Made by a program: the position numbers and the translations under genes | Origin: Patescibacteria group bacterium | Lineage (GTDB): Bacteria > Patescibacteriota > Patescibacteriia > 2-12-FULL-60-25 | Reading direction: 5' to 3' | NCBI GenBank assembly: GCA_018063105.1 | Contig: JAGOQX010000010.1 | Span: 1-33,542, forward strand | DNA: 33,542 nt | Notes under the pieces: model-generated | What the model was told of the DNA's origin: nothing | The model's input: the letters and a program-made list of their open reading frames with translations, nothing else | Databases searched by the model: none | Shown here: one piece after another, positions 9,587 through 14,639 of the stretch | Numbering within the stretch: position 1 is the first letter of the stretch | Layout of the letters: each line of letters starts with the position of its first letter

Positions 9587-10168
9587 CTACAACCCTAATG
9601 AAAGGTTCATTGGAACCTTCTGATCTTCCTGCGGAGGCTGAATTGGCATGGCCACATTCATCTTTTGCCCCTGCCGGCTCGTATAAAAAACTTCTTGGTT
9701 TTGAAGTGCGTGTTCATACACATCTCGAGTGATGCGAACGTCTTGCAAACAATAGTCTGCCAACTTTTCAATCTCCCCATTTTTCCAAAACTCCACAGCC
9801 TGCAACCCATGCCCACTCTTCCCTACTCCCAACGTCGCATGTGCCACATCATCCAACTTTACCTTAAACCCAATACGCTTCTCAATTTCCAACATCAGAT
9901 CAACGGTCGGGATCTTTCGGAAATCACCGGAGTAATACGTTTGCATGCATGGATAATCAAAACCAAAGAGATTGTATCCAATGACGCGATCAGCGCGCTC
10001 TAATCGTGGCCAGAGCTTTGGGAAGTCAGCTTCAAGGAATGTTTCAAACGTATCTGTTTCGTAAAAATAGACGCCAATCAACGAAATCTTTAACAAAGCG
10101 GCGTTATAGCTTCCAACATCCTGAAAGGTGTTCTGGGTTTCAATATCTAAAACAATTTCTCGACGCAT
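9587..10168 (-). CDS. Predicted 3'-5' exonuclease, DEDDy type, RNase H-like fold
   Basis: Start is placed at ATG 10168 (MRREIVLDIETQN); the frame is open upstream but that part would lie in the terminator hairpins of the GC-rich gene. The 193-residue protein has exonuclease motif I (LDIET), motif II (VIGYNLFGFDYP with a conserved Asp) and motif III of the Y-x-x-x-D kind (YCLQDVRIT), the DEDDy metal-binding set. Related proteins (YprB-like/DnaQ-type RNase H-fold) trim DNA or RNA from the 3' end; the substrate is not evident. The C-terminal 40 residues are Gln/Pro-rich and look unstructured. Promoter-like sequence before the gene is poor. It is separated from nrdB by about 98 bp. Confidence 0.78.
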   Translation of the reverse strand: MRREIVLDIETQNTFQDVGSYNAALLKISLIGVYFYETDTFETFLEADFPKLWPRLERADRVIGYNLFGFDYPCMQTYYSGDFRKIPTVDLMLEIEKRIGFKVKLDDVAHATLGVGKSGHGLQAVEFWKNGEIEKLADYCLQDVRITRDVYEHALQNQEVFYTSRQGQKMNVAMPIQPPQEDQKVPMNLSLGL

Positions 10169-10209
10169 AGTGATGACGGAGAATGTATCACACGGATAAA
10201 ATAAAATCA

Positions 10210-10233
10210 CCCCACCTCTCGCGAGAGGTGGGG
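10210..10233 (-). terminator. Intrinsic terminator of the GC-rich one-TM gene
   Basis: A perfect 24-bp palindrome (CCCCACCTCTCG plus its complement) followed on the minus strand by TGATTTTATTTTAT. It lies 44 bp after the stop of the gene at 10278, after another hairpin. Confidence 0.75.
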
Positions 10234-10240
10234 TTCGATT

Positions 10241-10267
10241 TCCGGTCTGCAAGGTTGCAAGACCGGA
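10241..10267 (-). other. Additional stem-loop between the GC-rich gene and its terminator
   Basis: TCCGGTCT and AGACCGGA pair, with GCAA/TTGC extending the stem past a bulged base. It has no T-tract of its own, so it may act as an RNA-stabilising 3' hairpin in tandem with the terminator. Confidence 0.55.
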
Positions 10268-10277
10268 GAGTTGAGGT

Positions 10278-10703
10278 TTACCGTCCATGGCGAGGCCTGG
10301 ACGGGCGCTGCGAAGCCGCCTTACGAGGCGCGCTCTTCGCGGCTTCCTGGTGAGCCTCCTGCGCAGGGGCGACCGTGGTCCCCTCCTGCCGGGTGTTCTC
10401 ACGCCAGGTGTTCGCGGCGGCGCTCGTCACCTTCGCCATCGCGTACAACGCGAGGCCGGCGACGGAGAGCCCGACGAAAAGCACCACGAGCGCGAGGAAC
10501 GCGCCCATGACCAGCTTCATCGCCGCGTCGTCCGCCACGGAGGGCTTCTTCTCCTCCTTCGGCTTCTCCGCGCACGGAGGAGCCACTCGAGGCTGCAGCG
10601 GACACGGCGGGAGGAAGTACCCGCCGAGATCCCGGCCCTGCTGCGGGCCGAAGTGACCCTGGTAATACGGGGCCGGGGGGACGACGGGGGGGACGTTCGA
10701 CAT
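10278..10703 (-). CDS. GC-rich gene: proline-rich single-pass membrane protein, unknown function
   Basis: The start is set at ATG 10703 (MSNVPPVVPP) because GAAGGAG lies six bases upstream and the promoter at 10765-10793 excludes the longer frame. The 141-residue product has a Pro/Gly/Tyr-rich N-terminus with two cysteines, a charged stretch KPKEEKKPSVADD, one membrane segment at about 63-90 (Ala/Val/Leu-rich), and an Arg/Ala/Gln-rich tail ending PSRPRHGR. No family was recognised. GC content is much higher than in the core genes around it. It has its own TTGACA promoter, Shine-Dalgarno sequence, and terminator, all signs of a self-contained unit. The promoter nearly duplicates that of the next GC-rich gene. 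Confidence 0.7.
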   Translation of the reverse strand: MSNVPPVVPPAPYYQGHFGPQQGRDLGGYFLPPCPLQPRVAPPCAEKPKEEKKPSVADDAAMKLVMGAFLALVVLFVGLSVAGLALYAMAKVTSAAANTWRENTRQEGTTVAPAQEAHQEAAKSAPRKAASQRPSRPRHGR

Positions 10704-10764
10704 TCCAGTCTCCTTCGAAAGAACCATCTTTTTCAGCACGAGCGCATCTCGTACCGAACAACAT

Positions 10765-10793
10765 AAGATAGCACAAAAAGGGGGTTTTGTCAA
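10765..10793 (-). promoter_or_regulatory. Sigma-70-type promoter, copy A, GC-rich one-TM gene
   Basis: TTGACA (10788-10793), 17-bp spacer, TATCTT (10765-10770) preceded by TGC, an extended -10. Predicted leader about 55 nt. It shares TTGACAAAA and TTTTGTGCTATCTTAT with promoter B at 12558-12586. Confidence 0.85.
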
Positions 10794-10834
10794 TGGTAGC
10801 ACCTAATAATTGGCGTATTTTAGCAAAAAGAAAA

Positions 10835-10860
10835 CCGGTCAGCAGGAGGCTGCTGACCGG
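10835..10860 (-). terminator. Intrinsic terminator of the lipoprotein gene
   Basis: An 11-bp perfect stem CCGGTCAGCAG/CTGCTGACCGG with a 4-base loop, followed on the minus strand by TTTTCTTTTT. It lies 41 bp after the stop at 10902. Confidence 0.9.
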
Positions 10861-10901
10861 GCTCAACTCACCGAGAATGGTGAGGAGACAGTTGAAGGTG
10901 G

Positions 10902-12491
10902 CTACTGCGCCGAGGTGAGCGCGGTGTTGTAGGCGTTGCCGATGCCAGACATGCCGTAGTAGTCCGGCGACGTCTTCTCGTTGGTCTTGTGGTTCCCCTT
11001 CTCGGACTTGTCGGTCCAGAGGAACGCTGAGGTGTGGGGCGGACCAGCCTGCTGCGGGAAGTCGAAGCCTGTCCAGACCCCGGGATCATCGTAGCTGATG
11101 ATCTGAAGCCGACGCGGCACGACATCTCCGGTAAAGCCGTCATCCAGCTTGACCTGAACCCACGACTGCGGGGTCACGCCGGAGACGACGAGGTTGAGCG
11201 AGATCGTCAGGTGGTTCTGCCACACGTCGCTCACCGCGAGCTCGCCGTCGGTCTTGTTCATGTACACGGCTCGTCCCCACCCCGGGTAGAAGACCTGCGT
11301 ACCGGGCTCGATGACCATGGAGCCGCCGTTCACGTAGATCGGCGAGAATCCCTGGTTCTCGAGCACCGTCGCGTCGAGCGTGAGCTCGGGCGAGTGATCG
11401 ACCTTGAACACGAGCTGACGGATGTCGACCTCGCGCCCCGGGTTCGTGGCGATGTCGATCGCGATCAGCTGGTTCACGCCGTTGTGCAGCTTGGTGGGGT
11501 TGTTGTACCACTGGTGCTGCACCTGTGGGATGCTCGCGTGGATGATGACCTTCGTGGGGTTGTAGTCCCCGTTGATCGCGATCGGCTTCCAGTCGTCGCC
11601 GCTCCATGCCATCTTCGGCACGAACTTACCCGAGTCACCGCTGTGCGCAGCGCCACTCTCGTTGAGCGGCTTGGTTTCGGGGATGTACATCACGACCACC
11701 AGGCGCCGCGCCGAGTTGGCTGGCACCACGATGTCGTAGAATGTGACTGAGCCGTCGAGAGCGAACTCTCCGGCATAGAACTCCGGGTTCGGCTCGTCGA
11801 GGAAGTACGCGACCGGATCGACGAAGTCCTCGACGACACCATTCCAGTCCTCGCGGAACTCCGTGAGCTGCCGGATCTGTTGGTCCGTGTCACATGGGTT
11901 CACCACGATGAAGCGATTCATCGCGACGTTCCACCCGCTCTCCACGAGGAACATGTTGTTCGGCGTGGTGTCGGGATCGATCTGGAACTGGACAGGCTTG
12001 TCGCAGCTGGGCTCGTTGCCCTGGCCACCTTGCCCGCCCTGCCCCGCATCGCCGCCGCCCGTGCCCGAGTTGGTCTCGGTCGTGGTCGACGTCGTCGTGG
12101 TGGTGTTGGTGCCGCCGCCCGCTCCTTGCTGGGTCGAGCAGACGCACTCCGAGAACTCCGCTCCACCACCGCCGTAGATACACGTCTTCTGGCCGACGTT
12201 CCCATCGTCGCAAAAACACGCGTAGAGCGCACCGTACGAGCAGTGGTTATCGTCGAGATTCGGCAAGTCGATCGGCTCGCATCCGCTGACGGTCATGCCG
12301 TCCTGCAGACAGCGCTGCTGACCCACAGTCACCCTGTGGTAGCTGTCGACGTATTCGCACAGCCTGAATCCTCCAGTTGTGCAGAGACCGTCCTCACCGT
12401 TCGAGGCGTTGGCCGTCTCCGGCATACTCTTGCAGCCGAGGCTGAGGATCATCGCGAGAACGAACAAAATGGAAAGCGCGATTTGGCGCAT
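10902..12491 (-). CDS. Large GC-rich surface lipoprotein, myxobacterial-like, probable horizontal acquisition
   Basis: The 529-residue protein has a lipoprotein signal peptide with lipobox LSLGC (Cys20). After this comes a Cys-rich region (about 37-150) with repeated C-x-DG-x-x-GQ-x-C patterns (CFCDDGNVGQKTC), a Thr/Ser/Gly linker (TTTTTSTTTE, GGQGGQG), and a roughly 370-residue C-terminal region with beta-sandwich-like character and few Cys. The Cys-rich-plus-Thr/Gly layout is familiar from Myxococcota secreted proteins, but no specific family is claimed. Codon use is strongly G/C-ending, unlike neighbours. ATG 12491 is preceded by TAGGAG eight bases upstream. It is monocistronic: promoter B upstream and terminator at 10835-10860. 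The protein likely sits on the cell surface; its partner is unknown. Confidence 0.82.
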   Translation of the reverse strand: MRQIALSILFVLAMILSLGCKSMPETANASNGEDGLCTTGGFRLCEYVDSYHRVTVGQQRCLQDGMTVSGCEPIDLPNLDDNHCSYGALYACFCDDGNVGQKTCIYGGGGAEFSECVCSTQQGAGGGTNTTTTTSTTTETNSGTGGGDAGQGGQGGQGNEPSCDKPVQFQIDPDTTPNNMFLVESGWNVAMNRFIVVNPCDTDQQIRQLTEFREDWNGVVEDFVDPVAYFLDEPNPEFYAGEFALDGSVTFYDIVVPANSARRLVVVMYIPETKPLNESGAAHSGDSGKFVPKMAWSGDDWKPIAINGDYNPTKVIIHASIPQVQHQWYNNPTKLHNGVNQLIAIDIATNPGREVDIRQLVFKVDHSPELTLDATVLENQGFSPIYVNGGSMVIEPGTQVFYPGWGRAVYMNKTDGELAVSDVWQNHLTISLNLVVSGVTPQSWVQVKLDDGFTGDVVPRRLQIISYDDPGVWTGFDFPQQAGPPHTSAFLWTDKSEKGNHKTNEKTSPDYYGMSGIGNAYNTALTSAQ

Positions 12492-12557
12492 ATTTCATTC
12501 TCCTACCGTTGGTTGTCAACGTGCACCTCCGCACATTCCTGCGCAGAGTAACGAGAT

Positions 12558-12586
12558 AAGATAGCACAAAATGACGATTTTGTCAA
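12558..12586 (-). promoter_or_regulatory. Sigma-70-type promoter, copy B, lipoprotein gene
   Basis: TTGACA (12581-12586), 17-bp spacer, TATCTT (12558-12563) with upstream TGC. Nearly identical to promoter A at 10765-10793. Predicted leader about 60 nt, containing the Shine-Dalgarno sequence. Confidence 0.85.
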
Positions 12587-12652
12587 CCGTCTGGCTTACA
12601 CTTCTATTCCTTTTTGGCTAATTCTAGAGCACTTTTCGATTTTCCTTATATC

Positions 12653-12733
12653 CCTCTCCTTACGAAGGAGAGGCTAGGTGAGGTTCTGTCGCTGCGGGTT
12701 CACCTCCTCTAGCTCCTCCTTCGTAAGGAGGAG
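12653..12733. repeat. REP-like inverted pair (BIME-like element)
   Basis: Two small palindromes, CCTCTCCTTACGAAGGAGAGG and CTCCTCCTTCGTAAGGAGGAG (each shown in at most 21 bases; centres TACGA and TCGTA), face each other. Each is followed inwards by CTAGG-TGAGG or its imperfect complement, so the left and right halves form a larger inverted repeat around a spacer TCTGTCGCTGCGGG. This is the layout of paired REP sequences. It sits between typA and the lipoprotein promoter. No REP-associated transposase (RAYT) gene is in the window. Confidence 0.65.
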
Positions 12734-12789: not shown

Positions 12790-14598
12790 TTACGCGCTAG
12801 CTGACTGCCCGGCGCGCTTTCGTTCGAATTCTTTGAGGTAGAGTTTGCGGATTCGGATGGACTTTGGTGTGACTTCCACGAGTTCATCGTCACCGATGTA
12901 TTCGAGAGCTTCTTCCAAACCCATGTGGCGAGGCGTGTCCAAACCTTCTGCGACGCCGTCTCCCTTGGAACGCATGTTGGAAAGTTTCTTTTCCTTACAG
13001 ATGTTCACACACAAGTCTTCTGGTTTTGCGTTCTGTCCAATAACCTGGCCTTCGTACACTTTCAAGCCTGGTTTAATGAAAAGCTGACCGCGTTCTTGAG
13101 CTGCTTGCATGCCGTATGAATTGGACTCCCCGCTCTCGAATGAGATCAATGAGCCGTGCTGTGCTGTTGTCATGGCGCCAGCAAATGAGCGGTATCCCAA
13201 TAACAAGGAGTTCATAATTCCCTGACCACGCGTATCCATCATGAATTCGTTGCGGAAACCGATCAACCCACGTGTTGGGATCACGAATTCCATGTAGGCC
13301 ATGCCGTTCTCAACGTTCATGTCCTTCAATTCACCCTTGCGCTTGCCAAGCTTTTCGATCACAACACCGCTCATTCCTTCTGGAACTTCGATGCTTACCT
13401 CTTCAAATGGTTCGGACTTCTCCCCGTCAATATCTTTGAAAATAACCTGTGGGCGGGAAACTTGGAGTTCGTATCCTTCACGGCGCATGTTTTCGATCAA
13501 AATCGACAAGTGCAACTCACCGCGACCGGAAACGATAAAGGTATCGGAACCCTCACCTGGATCAACCTTCAAGGCAACGTCGTTCTGCAACGCATGTTCC
13601 AAGCGTTCCTTGATGTTTCGCGTTGTCGTATATTGACCTTCCTCCCCCGCAAATGGCGAGGTGTTGATACCGAACGTCATTTTAACGGTTGGTTCCTCAA
13701 TATGCATGACAGGCAATGCTTCCGGATTTTCAACGCTGGTGATGGTTTCACCGATGTTGATATTTTCGATTCCGCAGAATGCAACGATTTCACCCGCAAC
13801 AGCCTCTTCAACTTCCACCTTTTTAAATCCATCAAACAACATGATGCTCGTGACCTTTGCCGGAGCAGCCTTCCCATCGCGATTCACCCAGATCACTTGG
13901 CCTGGCTTAAACGTTCCACGAACAACGCGTCCGAGGGCTGTTTTGCCCTTATACGCGTCGTAGCTCACGTTGGCGACGGAAACCTGCAATGAACCGTTTG
14001 GATCAAAATTTGAGGCTGGAATCTGTTCGACAACGGTTTGGAATAATGGCTGAACATTCTCCATCTTTGTGAGATCTGGTTCCAAGCCTGCCTTCCCCTG
14101 TTTCGCAGAAGCGTACACAACTGGAAAATCTGTTTGCATGTCGCTTGCACCGAGCATGACGAAAAGATCAAAGGTCTTGTCGAGCACCCAATCTGGTCGA
14201 GCATCTGGTTTGTCGATCTTGTTGATGACCACGATGATGCGATGACCTGCCTCAATCGCCTTCTTCAACACAAAGCGTGTTTGTGGCATTGGACCTTCCT
14301 TGGCGTCAACGAGCAACAAAGCGCCATCGACCAAGTTCATGATGCGTTCTACCTCCCCGCCGAAGTCTGCGTGGCCTGGGGTATCAACAATGTTAATTTT
14401 TGTCCCGTTATATTGGACCGCAACGTTCTTGGATAAAATCGTAATACCACGCTCACGTTCAAGCGGGTTTGAGTCCATGATGGTATCTCCTTCGAGGACT
14501 TTGTTCTTAAATGTGTCTGATTGTCGCAACAACGAATCAACCAACGTGGTTTTCCCGTGGTCGACGTGAGCGATGATAGCAATGTTGCGCAGGTCCAT
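12790..14598 (-). CDS. typA: Ribosome-associated GTPase TypA/BipA
   Basis: The protein has 602 residues from ATG 14598. G-domain motifs are clear: G1 AHVDHGKTTL at about residues 10-19, G3 DTPGHADFGGEVER, G4 NKIDKPDARP. They are followed by an EF-G-like domain II (SYDAYKGKTALGRVVRGTF), the EF-G-type domains III/V (PFEEVSIEVPEGMSGVVIEK) and the BipA C-terminal domain with GLIGFRNEFMMDTRGQG. BipA binds the 70S ribosome in its GTP state and aids 50S assembly and growth at low temperature or under stress. The start is chosen because -10 TATTAT (14611-14616) lies 12 bp upstream, which rules out the in-frame ATG at 14631 inside the promoter. The mRNA leader would be only about six bases, with no Shine-Dalgarno sequence. 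Confidence 0.95.
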   Translation of the reverse strand: MDLRNIAIIAHVDHGKTTLVDSLLRQSDTFKNKVLEGDTIMDSNPLERERGITILSKNVAVQYNGTKINIVDTPGHADFGGEVERIMNLVDGALLLVDAKEGPMPQTRFVLKKAIEAGHRIIVVINKIDKPDARPDWVLDKTFDLFVMLGASDMQTDFPVVYASAKQGKAGLEPDLTKMENVQPLFQTVVEQIPASNFDPNGSLQVSVANVSYDAYKGKTALGRVVRGTFKPGQVIWVNRDGKAAPAKVTSIMLFDGFKKVEVEEAVAGEIVAFCGIENINIGETITSVENPEALPVMHIEEPTVKMTFGINTSPFAGEEGQYTTTRNIKERLEHALQNDVALKVDPGEGSDTFIVSGRGELHLSILIENMRREGYELQVSRPQVIFKDIDGEKSEPFEEVSIEVPEGMSGVVIEKLGKRKGELKDMNVENGMAYMEFVIPTRGLIGFRNEFMMDTRGQGIMNSLLLGYRSFAGAMTTAQHGSLISFESGESNSYGMQAAQERGQLFIKPGLKVYEGQVIGQNAKPEDLCVNICKEKKLSNMRSKGDGVAEGLDTPRHMGLEEALEYIGDDELVEVTPKSIRIRKLYLKEFERKRAGQSASA

Positions 14599-14610
14599 AG
14601 ATGTGGACGG

Positions 14611-14639
14611 ATAATACAGAAAAAATTGCATTCGGTCAA
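14611..14639 (-). promoter_or_regulatory. typA promoter, near-leaderless
   Basis: TTGACC (14634-14639), 17-bp spacer, TATTAT (14611-14616) on the minus strand; 12 bases separate it from ATG 14598. Confidence 0.8.

Follow-up and report, generated by a model that had tools for sequence, protein, structure and literature searches.

Two GC-rich genes between the exonuclease and BipA genes of a Patescibacteria genome probably belong to an accessory gene class of the Uhrbacteria family

Cys-rich lipoproteins of Myxococcota carry Gly/Thr/Ser linkers, a layout like that of the 529-residue lipoprotein (P0001) described here. They are unlike it in that the C-terminal domain of P0001 is probably of a CPR-family type. 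A 696-residue lipoprotein of Patescibacteria RA.bin129, a member of the same family (locus L185), has a lipobox, Cys module, linker and high GC3 (0.84) in common with P0001, and probably also its C-terminal beta-sandwich domain with the WSDxSE motif. Pairwise identity is low, and such a promoter lies ~3 kb upstream of the L185 gene rather than directly ahead of it. A second lipoprotein of the P0001 genome, encoded on contig C38, has the lipobox, Thr/Ser/Gly linker, promoter and probably the C-terminal domain type of P0001; pairwise identity is again low and the exact Cys motif is missing. A surface-type protein of ~1300 residues from the Uhrbacteria family (G000 C36:50497-54465) also ends in the beta-sandwich domain, but is far longer and uses native codons. 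In Foldseek searches with a model of this C36 domain, not of P0001, the tandem beta-sandwich folds recovered included integrin-alpha leg pairs and the MSCRAMM adhesins FnBPA, ClfA and Cna; at TM-scores of 0.1-0.3 and ~10% identity, this is an architectural resemblance and not family membership.

The window, that is, the whole 33,542-nt stretch analysed, is contig C28 of genome G000, a 962-kb MAG in 56 contigs whose family includes Candidatus Uhrbacteria; an earlier sequence-only reading that placed it in a CPR-like context was borne out. Genome GC is 47% and median GC3 is 0.46. Within a patch at 10278-12491 on the minus strand, GC rises to 62-70%. In 500-bp windows GC was 0.58-0.67 over 10251-12500, and the other genes of the window were mostly at 0.43-0.54. 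The patch contains the gene for P0001 (GC 0.62, GC3 0.86) and a small TM gene with a GC3 of 0.84 when counted from the in-frame start near promoter 2, or 0.78 for the longer mechanical ORF at 10278-10802. Both exceed the genome median by at least 0.20, the margin set for the promoter-linked GC-rich class described below. The earlier description of a GC-rich island with strongly G/C-ending codons agrees with this profile and with the GC3 of both genes. Its two genes were correctly placed; it overlooked the matching promoter ahead of each and the other such GC-rich genes across the genome. Neither gene was matched in Pfam, NCBIfam, PHROGs or PADLOC, and Rfam gave no match in the window. A phage or defence-island reading found no PHROG or PADLOC match at the locus. 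Features are listed in the table.

Table. Features of the GC-rich island and its borders (window coordinates)
Feature	Coordinates	Strand	Basis or remark
BipA/TypA GTPase, upstream border of slot	12790..14631	-	
Promoter 1, TTGACA-17-TATCTT, extended -10	12558..12586	-	Ahead of lipoprotein gene
Shine-Dalgarno AGGAG, 8 nt ahead of lipoprotein ATG	12500..12504	-	
529-aa surface lipoprotein gene P0001 (probable)	10902..12491	-	Sequence, composition
Signal peptide and lipobox LSLG-C20	12432..12491	-	Sequence, lipobox scan
Cys-rich region, residues 37-118; its CxC...CxC module spans residues 84-118	12138..12383	-	Motif search
Thr/Ser/Gly/Gln-rich linker, residues 119-162	12006..12137	-	Sequence
C-terminal domain, residues 308-511, probably of Uhrbacteria-family beta-sandwich type	10959..11570	-	Profile match
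Intrinsic terminator 3' of lipoprotein gene	10835..10860	-	
Promoter 2, near-identical to promoter 1	10765..10793	-	37-nt repeat, 84% identical
Shine-Dalgarno AAGGAG, 6 nt ahead of TM-gene ATG	10710..10715	-	
141-aa protein, one predicted TM helix, Pro-rich N-terminal part, GC ~0.70	10278..10703	-	SD-preceded ATG
Intrinsic terminator 3' of TM gene	10209..10234	-	
RNase H-like 3'-5' exonuclease, downstream border of slot	9587..10168	-	

The flanks are ordinary core genes, as previously proposed, and were identified as the exonuclease and ribonucleotide reductase genes on one side and BipA on the other. Members of the family share one gene order (ribonucleotide reductase, exonuclease, slot, BipA, g15181, EamA, beta-CASP), which is kept among ~20 relatives while the content of the slot varies. 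In G019 the slot is empty, with a terminator alone in an 89 bp gap between exonuclease and BipA; in other relatives it is 0.5-7.5 kb long. In the largest (L250, G011 C2; 7.5 kb), a short-chain dehydrogenase-like gene is accompanied by several further GC-rich genes. The slot of several relatives is occupied by a small TM gene with the same kind of promoter and usually high GC3 (L235, L239, L241, L246, L249, L253), and the TM gene of the window has the same position and layout. It was rejected as a sequence-proven orthologue of these genes (E 0.06), which are related among themselves as L239/L241 and L246/L249/L253. No integrase or transposase gene lies within the slot of the window. An imperfect inverted repeat with 29-nt arms (CTCCTTACGAAGGAG...) was located at 12656-12730, between BipA and the lipoprotein gene. 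Similar copies are present in the same genome at C5:3096 and C5:6009, and the element is possibly a small mobile repeat.

The promoter shared by the island genes is TTGACAAAA-N6-TTTTGTGCTATnTT. It was searched for with the signature TTGACAAAAN6TTTTGTGCTATNTT (22 positions, cut-off at least 17/22 matches). Both island promoters score 22/22, and all five full-score sites in G000 precede genes with a GC3 of 0.73-0.86. Outliers were defined as genes whose GC3 exceeded the genome median by more than 0.20, and genes up to 0.12 above it served for comparison. Almost all contigs of G000 were surveyed, six small contigs being left out, with genes from a home-made codon-score caller. The promoter preceded 14 of 29 outliers vs 5 of 710 other genes (Fisher p 6e-18); approximately half of the outliers are thus without it. 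As the promoter template was derived partly from sites in the window, the test was repeated on G020 (Candidatus Uhrbacteria SJ814, 41% GC, ~400 kb; contig C1, JADZEJ010000001.1), where the promoter was found at 5/9 outliers vs 2/320 comparison genes (p 8e-8). Several of the GC-rich genes of G020 again encode lipoproteins, some with Gly/Ser linkers. In G012, a relative of 55% GC, promoter-linked genes show no GC3 difference. The island genes belong to a few dozen GC-rich accessory genes of G000, several of which encode surface lipoproteins.

A promoter scan of genomes from 84,980 species returned 90 loci, mostly in Uhrbacteria, Magasanikbacteria and other Patescibacteria, and no Myxococcota-titled record was among them. 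CPR genes that follow the promoter have a GC of 0.58 vs 0.50 in their surroundings (p 3.5e-10), and their GC depends weakly on that of the genome (slope 0.37). The gene GC behind chance promoter matches outside CPR follows the genome (slope 1.04). For nine cassettes, the 120 bp upstream had a GC of 0.46, equal to that of native intergenic sequence (0.457), and the CDS mean was 0.636. The 80 bp downstream were intermediate between CDS and native sequence (0.535, hairpins or the next GC-rich gene included). In the island itself, upstream GC is 0.45 for the lipoprotein gene and 0.42 for the TM gene, against 0.62-0.70 in the coding sequences. Donor-like composition is not seen in the upstream flanks; only the coding sequences are GC-rich, and the excess begins at the start codon. 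No description of this promoter-linked GC-rich class was found in the open-access subset of the literature. Other GC-rich loci were also recorded. L057 (G000 C48, 1040-3188, minus strand) comprises two adjoining genes. One encodes a lipoprotein with a Thr/Ser/Gly linker; the product of the other is a secreted protein of 418 aa with the C-terminus ...GGQINF, which looks barrel-like and is odd in a CPR cell without an outer membrane. L082 (G000 C55, 1835-3505, minus strand) has a GC3 of 0.62 and encodes a serine/threonine protein kinase that includes a hydrophobic segment. Locus L202, on a contig assigned to the MAG of a Thermoplasmatota archaeon (STD1_48), combines the CPR promoter with a similarly styled Gly-rich lipoprotein; the contig is probably a misbinned one from CPR.

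Shine-Dalgarno motifs (SD) also mark the class. In G000, 76% of GC3 outliers have an SD (control 14%) vs 8% of native genes (control 7%), and in G020 the figures are 56% vs 3-19%. In G012, 69% of promoter-linked genes have one vs 23%, the only contrast of the class that holds in that genome. Pooled across promoter-linked CPR genes the SD fraction is 0.43 vs 0.42 in 19 non-CPR chance matches, a comparison that is uninformative because chance matches in other phyla also carry SDs. In the native leading genes of G000, -10-like hexamers peak between positions -20 and -11 relative to the ATG, as expected of leaderless transcripts, and an SD is present in 1 of the 16 genes of its ribosomal-protein list. 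Judged by these signals, the native genes of G000 and G020 appear to be leaderless and SD-less. The 3' end of the 16S rRNA of G000 keeps its anti-SD, CCTCCTTT, which led to rejection of the idea that the ribosomes of the cell itself have no use for an SD.

P0001 has the pattern of a type II signal peptide, with a hydrophobic signal and a lipobox ending in Cys, and is most likely exported and lipid-anchored. A surface role, as proposed earlier, is probable, and the layout described at that time (529 residues, Cys-rich module, Thr/Ser/Gly linker) was found again in the sequence. The Cys module recurs in six other strings, every one of them in same-family loci (L118/L105, L185, L194, L291), and its motif occurred 0 times in shuffled segments. 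After the linker there is a 367-residue C-terminal part. An hmmsearch with a model built without P0001 recovered residues 308-511 (E 1.1e-4), colinear to the WSDxSE motif. Alignment of this domain by hhalign gave an E-value of 8e-4 with a probability of only 24%, and the E-values of shuffles were 0.23-0.64. P0001 retains 4/4 invariant columns of a 31-sequence domain alignment at ~20% identity. On this modest match, homology to the Uhrbacteria-family beta-sandwich domain is probable, with moderate confidence, and not proven. None of the collections searched contained a close homologue of P0001, a PDB sequence search returned nothing, and tblastn against plasmids gave one non-significant match. 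An AlphaFold model of P0001 alone (pLDDT 31) was set aside.

The C-terminal domain of the C38 lipoprotein was placed in this domain family by hhalign (E 2e-53), and the L185 lipoprotein also carries the domain (E 2e-44). The C38 domain is present in 36/96 genomes searched, nearly all from the same bacterial family, and the beta-sandwich domain is often terminal in a ~1300-aa protein. The two copies in G000 have GC3 values of 0.74 (C38) and 0.49 (C36), so that a single domain family exists in two codon dialects inside one genome. AlphaFold with the 31-sequence alignment modelled the C36 domain as a tandem beta-sandwich (pLDDT 88). The modelled fold fits an adhesion role and is no proof of one. 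The attachment function suggested for the lipoprotein by the sequence-only reading is plausible on the grounds of this adhesin-like fold in a related domain, and a host as its target would be no more than a reasonable guess. MopE repeats (PF11617) were found in 52/96 relatives searched; such modules are therefore widespread in this CPR class.

Cassettes seem to move within the family, since a cassette gene on contig C6 has 86-88% nucleotide identity to genes in other genera, above the 68-75% of the core genes bipA and exonuclease between the genera compared. Homologous GC-rich gene arrays encoding proteins with HGLF/HGVF motifs were observed in G000 at L014 (C6, 4276-7270) and L036 (C26, 1383-4332). 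Several genera of Uhrbacteria have such arrays, with a nucleotide identity of 72-88%.

The island had been attributed to acquisition from a large-genome predator or host, and the origin of its composition has several candidate explanations. Horizontal transfer of the whole locus from Myxococcota or a similar high-GC host or predator would account for a codon choice unlike that of the ribosomal-protein genes of the genome (GAG 0.83 vs 0.27; CCC 0.28 vs 0.01), and Cys modules, MopE repeats and Gly/Thr/Ser linkers do resemble Myxococcota surface proteins. A GC-rich donor block should, however, bring GC-rich upstream spacers, and the native upstream sequences argue against block transfer. Promoters of this type turned up chiefly in CPR, related genera have both the slot and a small promoter-linked TM gene, and similar cassettes occur throughout the lineage. 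The C-terminal half of P0001 moderately matches a domain native to CPR that sister lipoproteins carry, a relative encodes a high-GC3 protein of the same architecture, and the MopE repeats are common among the relatives. These results largely amount to the outcome that the earlier proposal had named as counting against it, namely closest homologues from one and the same CPR lineage with matching composition. Acquisition of the locus from such a donor is thus improbable, and an old Myxococcota contribution to the Cys/linker style of the N-terminal half of the lipoprotein is possible. An assembly chimera is extremely unlikely: the genome is a MAG in many contigs, but promoters of the same type occur elsewhere in it, and independent genomes have the slot with other cassettes.

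Two further explanations keep the genes within the lineage. If native genes had become GC-rich because their own cell selects in the ordinary way for high expression, the consensus promoter, SD and terminators would be expected features, and C-ending codons are indeed raised in ribosomal-protein and cassette genes alike. The ribosomal-protein genes nevertheless shift in the opposite direction for G-ending codons and are almost without SD, and the codon shifts of the two sets correlate at only 0.31. Because cassette codons differ from those of ribosomal-protein genes in this way, ordinary host translational selection was rejected as the sole cause of GC-richness, and this explanation is unlikely. 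Recent transfer from a high-GC Uhrbacteria relative, with composition not yet adjusted, is given an even chance; it overlaps with the preferred reading, two cassettes of a family-wide accessory class, and may be part of it. The GC of the locus ranges from 0.37 to 0.62 across the family, high-GC genomes carry cassette genes of equal composition, and the 86-88% identity of some cassettes across genera points the same way. Against recency, the promoter-linked TM genes recurring in the slot are also of high GC and the upstream flanks are native-like, which suggests that the composition is kept by something else.

The island is best explained, with a probability of about 0.7, as two cassettes of an accessory class of the Uhrbacteria family, one of them encoding a strain-variable, strongly expressed surface lipoprotein. 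The class, with its expression signals, slot and shared modules, is directly seen in the genomes. Each of the two would be an independent unit of promoter, Shine-Dalgarno, GC-rich CDS and hairpin terminator within the variable slot. The cassette class would be lineage-wide, with a common promoter and a GC3 of ~0.7-0.9 kept even in low-GC genomes, and its members are apparently exchanged within the family. Strong expression of the cassettes is predicted from their signals. The lipoprotein may then consist of a Cys-rich collar and a flexible stalk bearing the C-terminal beta-sandwich region, probably of a type present in other surface proteins of the Uhrbacteria family, and could serve in contact or adhesion as a module that is strongly expressed and varies between strains.

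It is conceivable, if speculative, that reduced CPR genomes combine a leaderless, SD-less housekeeping set with a leadered, SD-led, GC-rich set of accessory and surface genes, which would be exchanged between lineages under one consensus promoter and perhaps switched on together for host contact. Expression of the cassettes inside the host cell, as the reason for their generic bacterial signals, is very unlikely. Genes for host contact in CPR are difficult to recognise, since almost every one of them is an orphan that matches no known family. The signature of promoter, Shine-Dalgarno and GC-rich codons flags a set of genes in one CPR lineage that vary and often encode exported products, and so yields a list of candidates. 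Two expression regimes within one reduced genome are the lasting surprise, and they raise the question of why a seemingly leaderless, SD-less genome would have a second, canonical bacterial mode of expression for its accessory surface genes.
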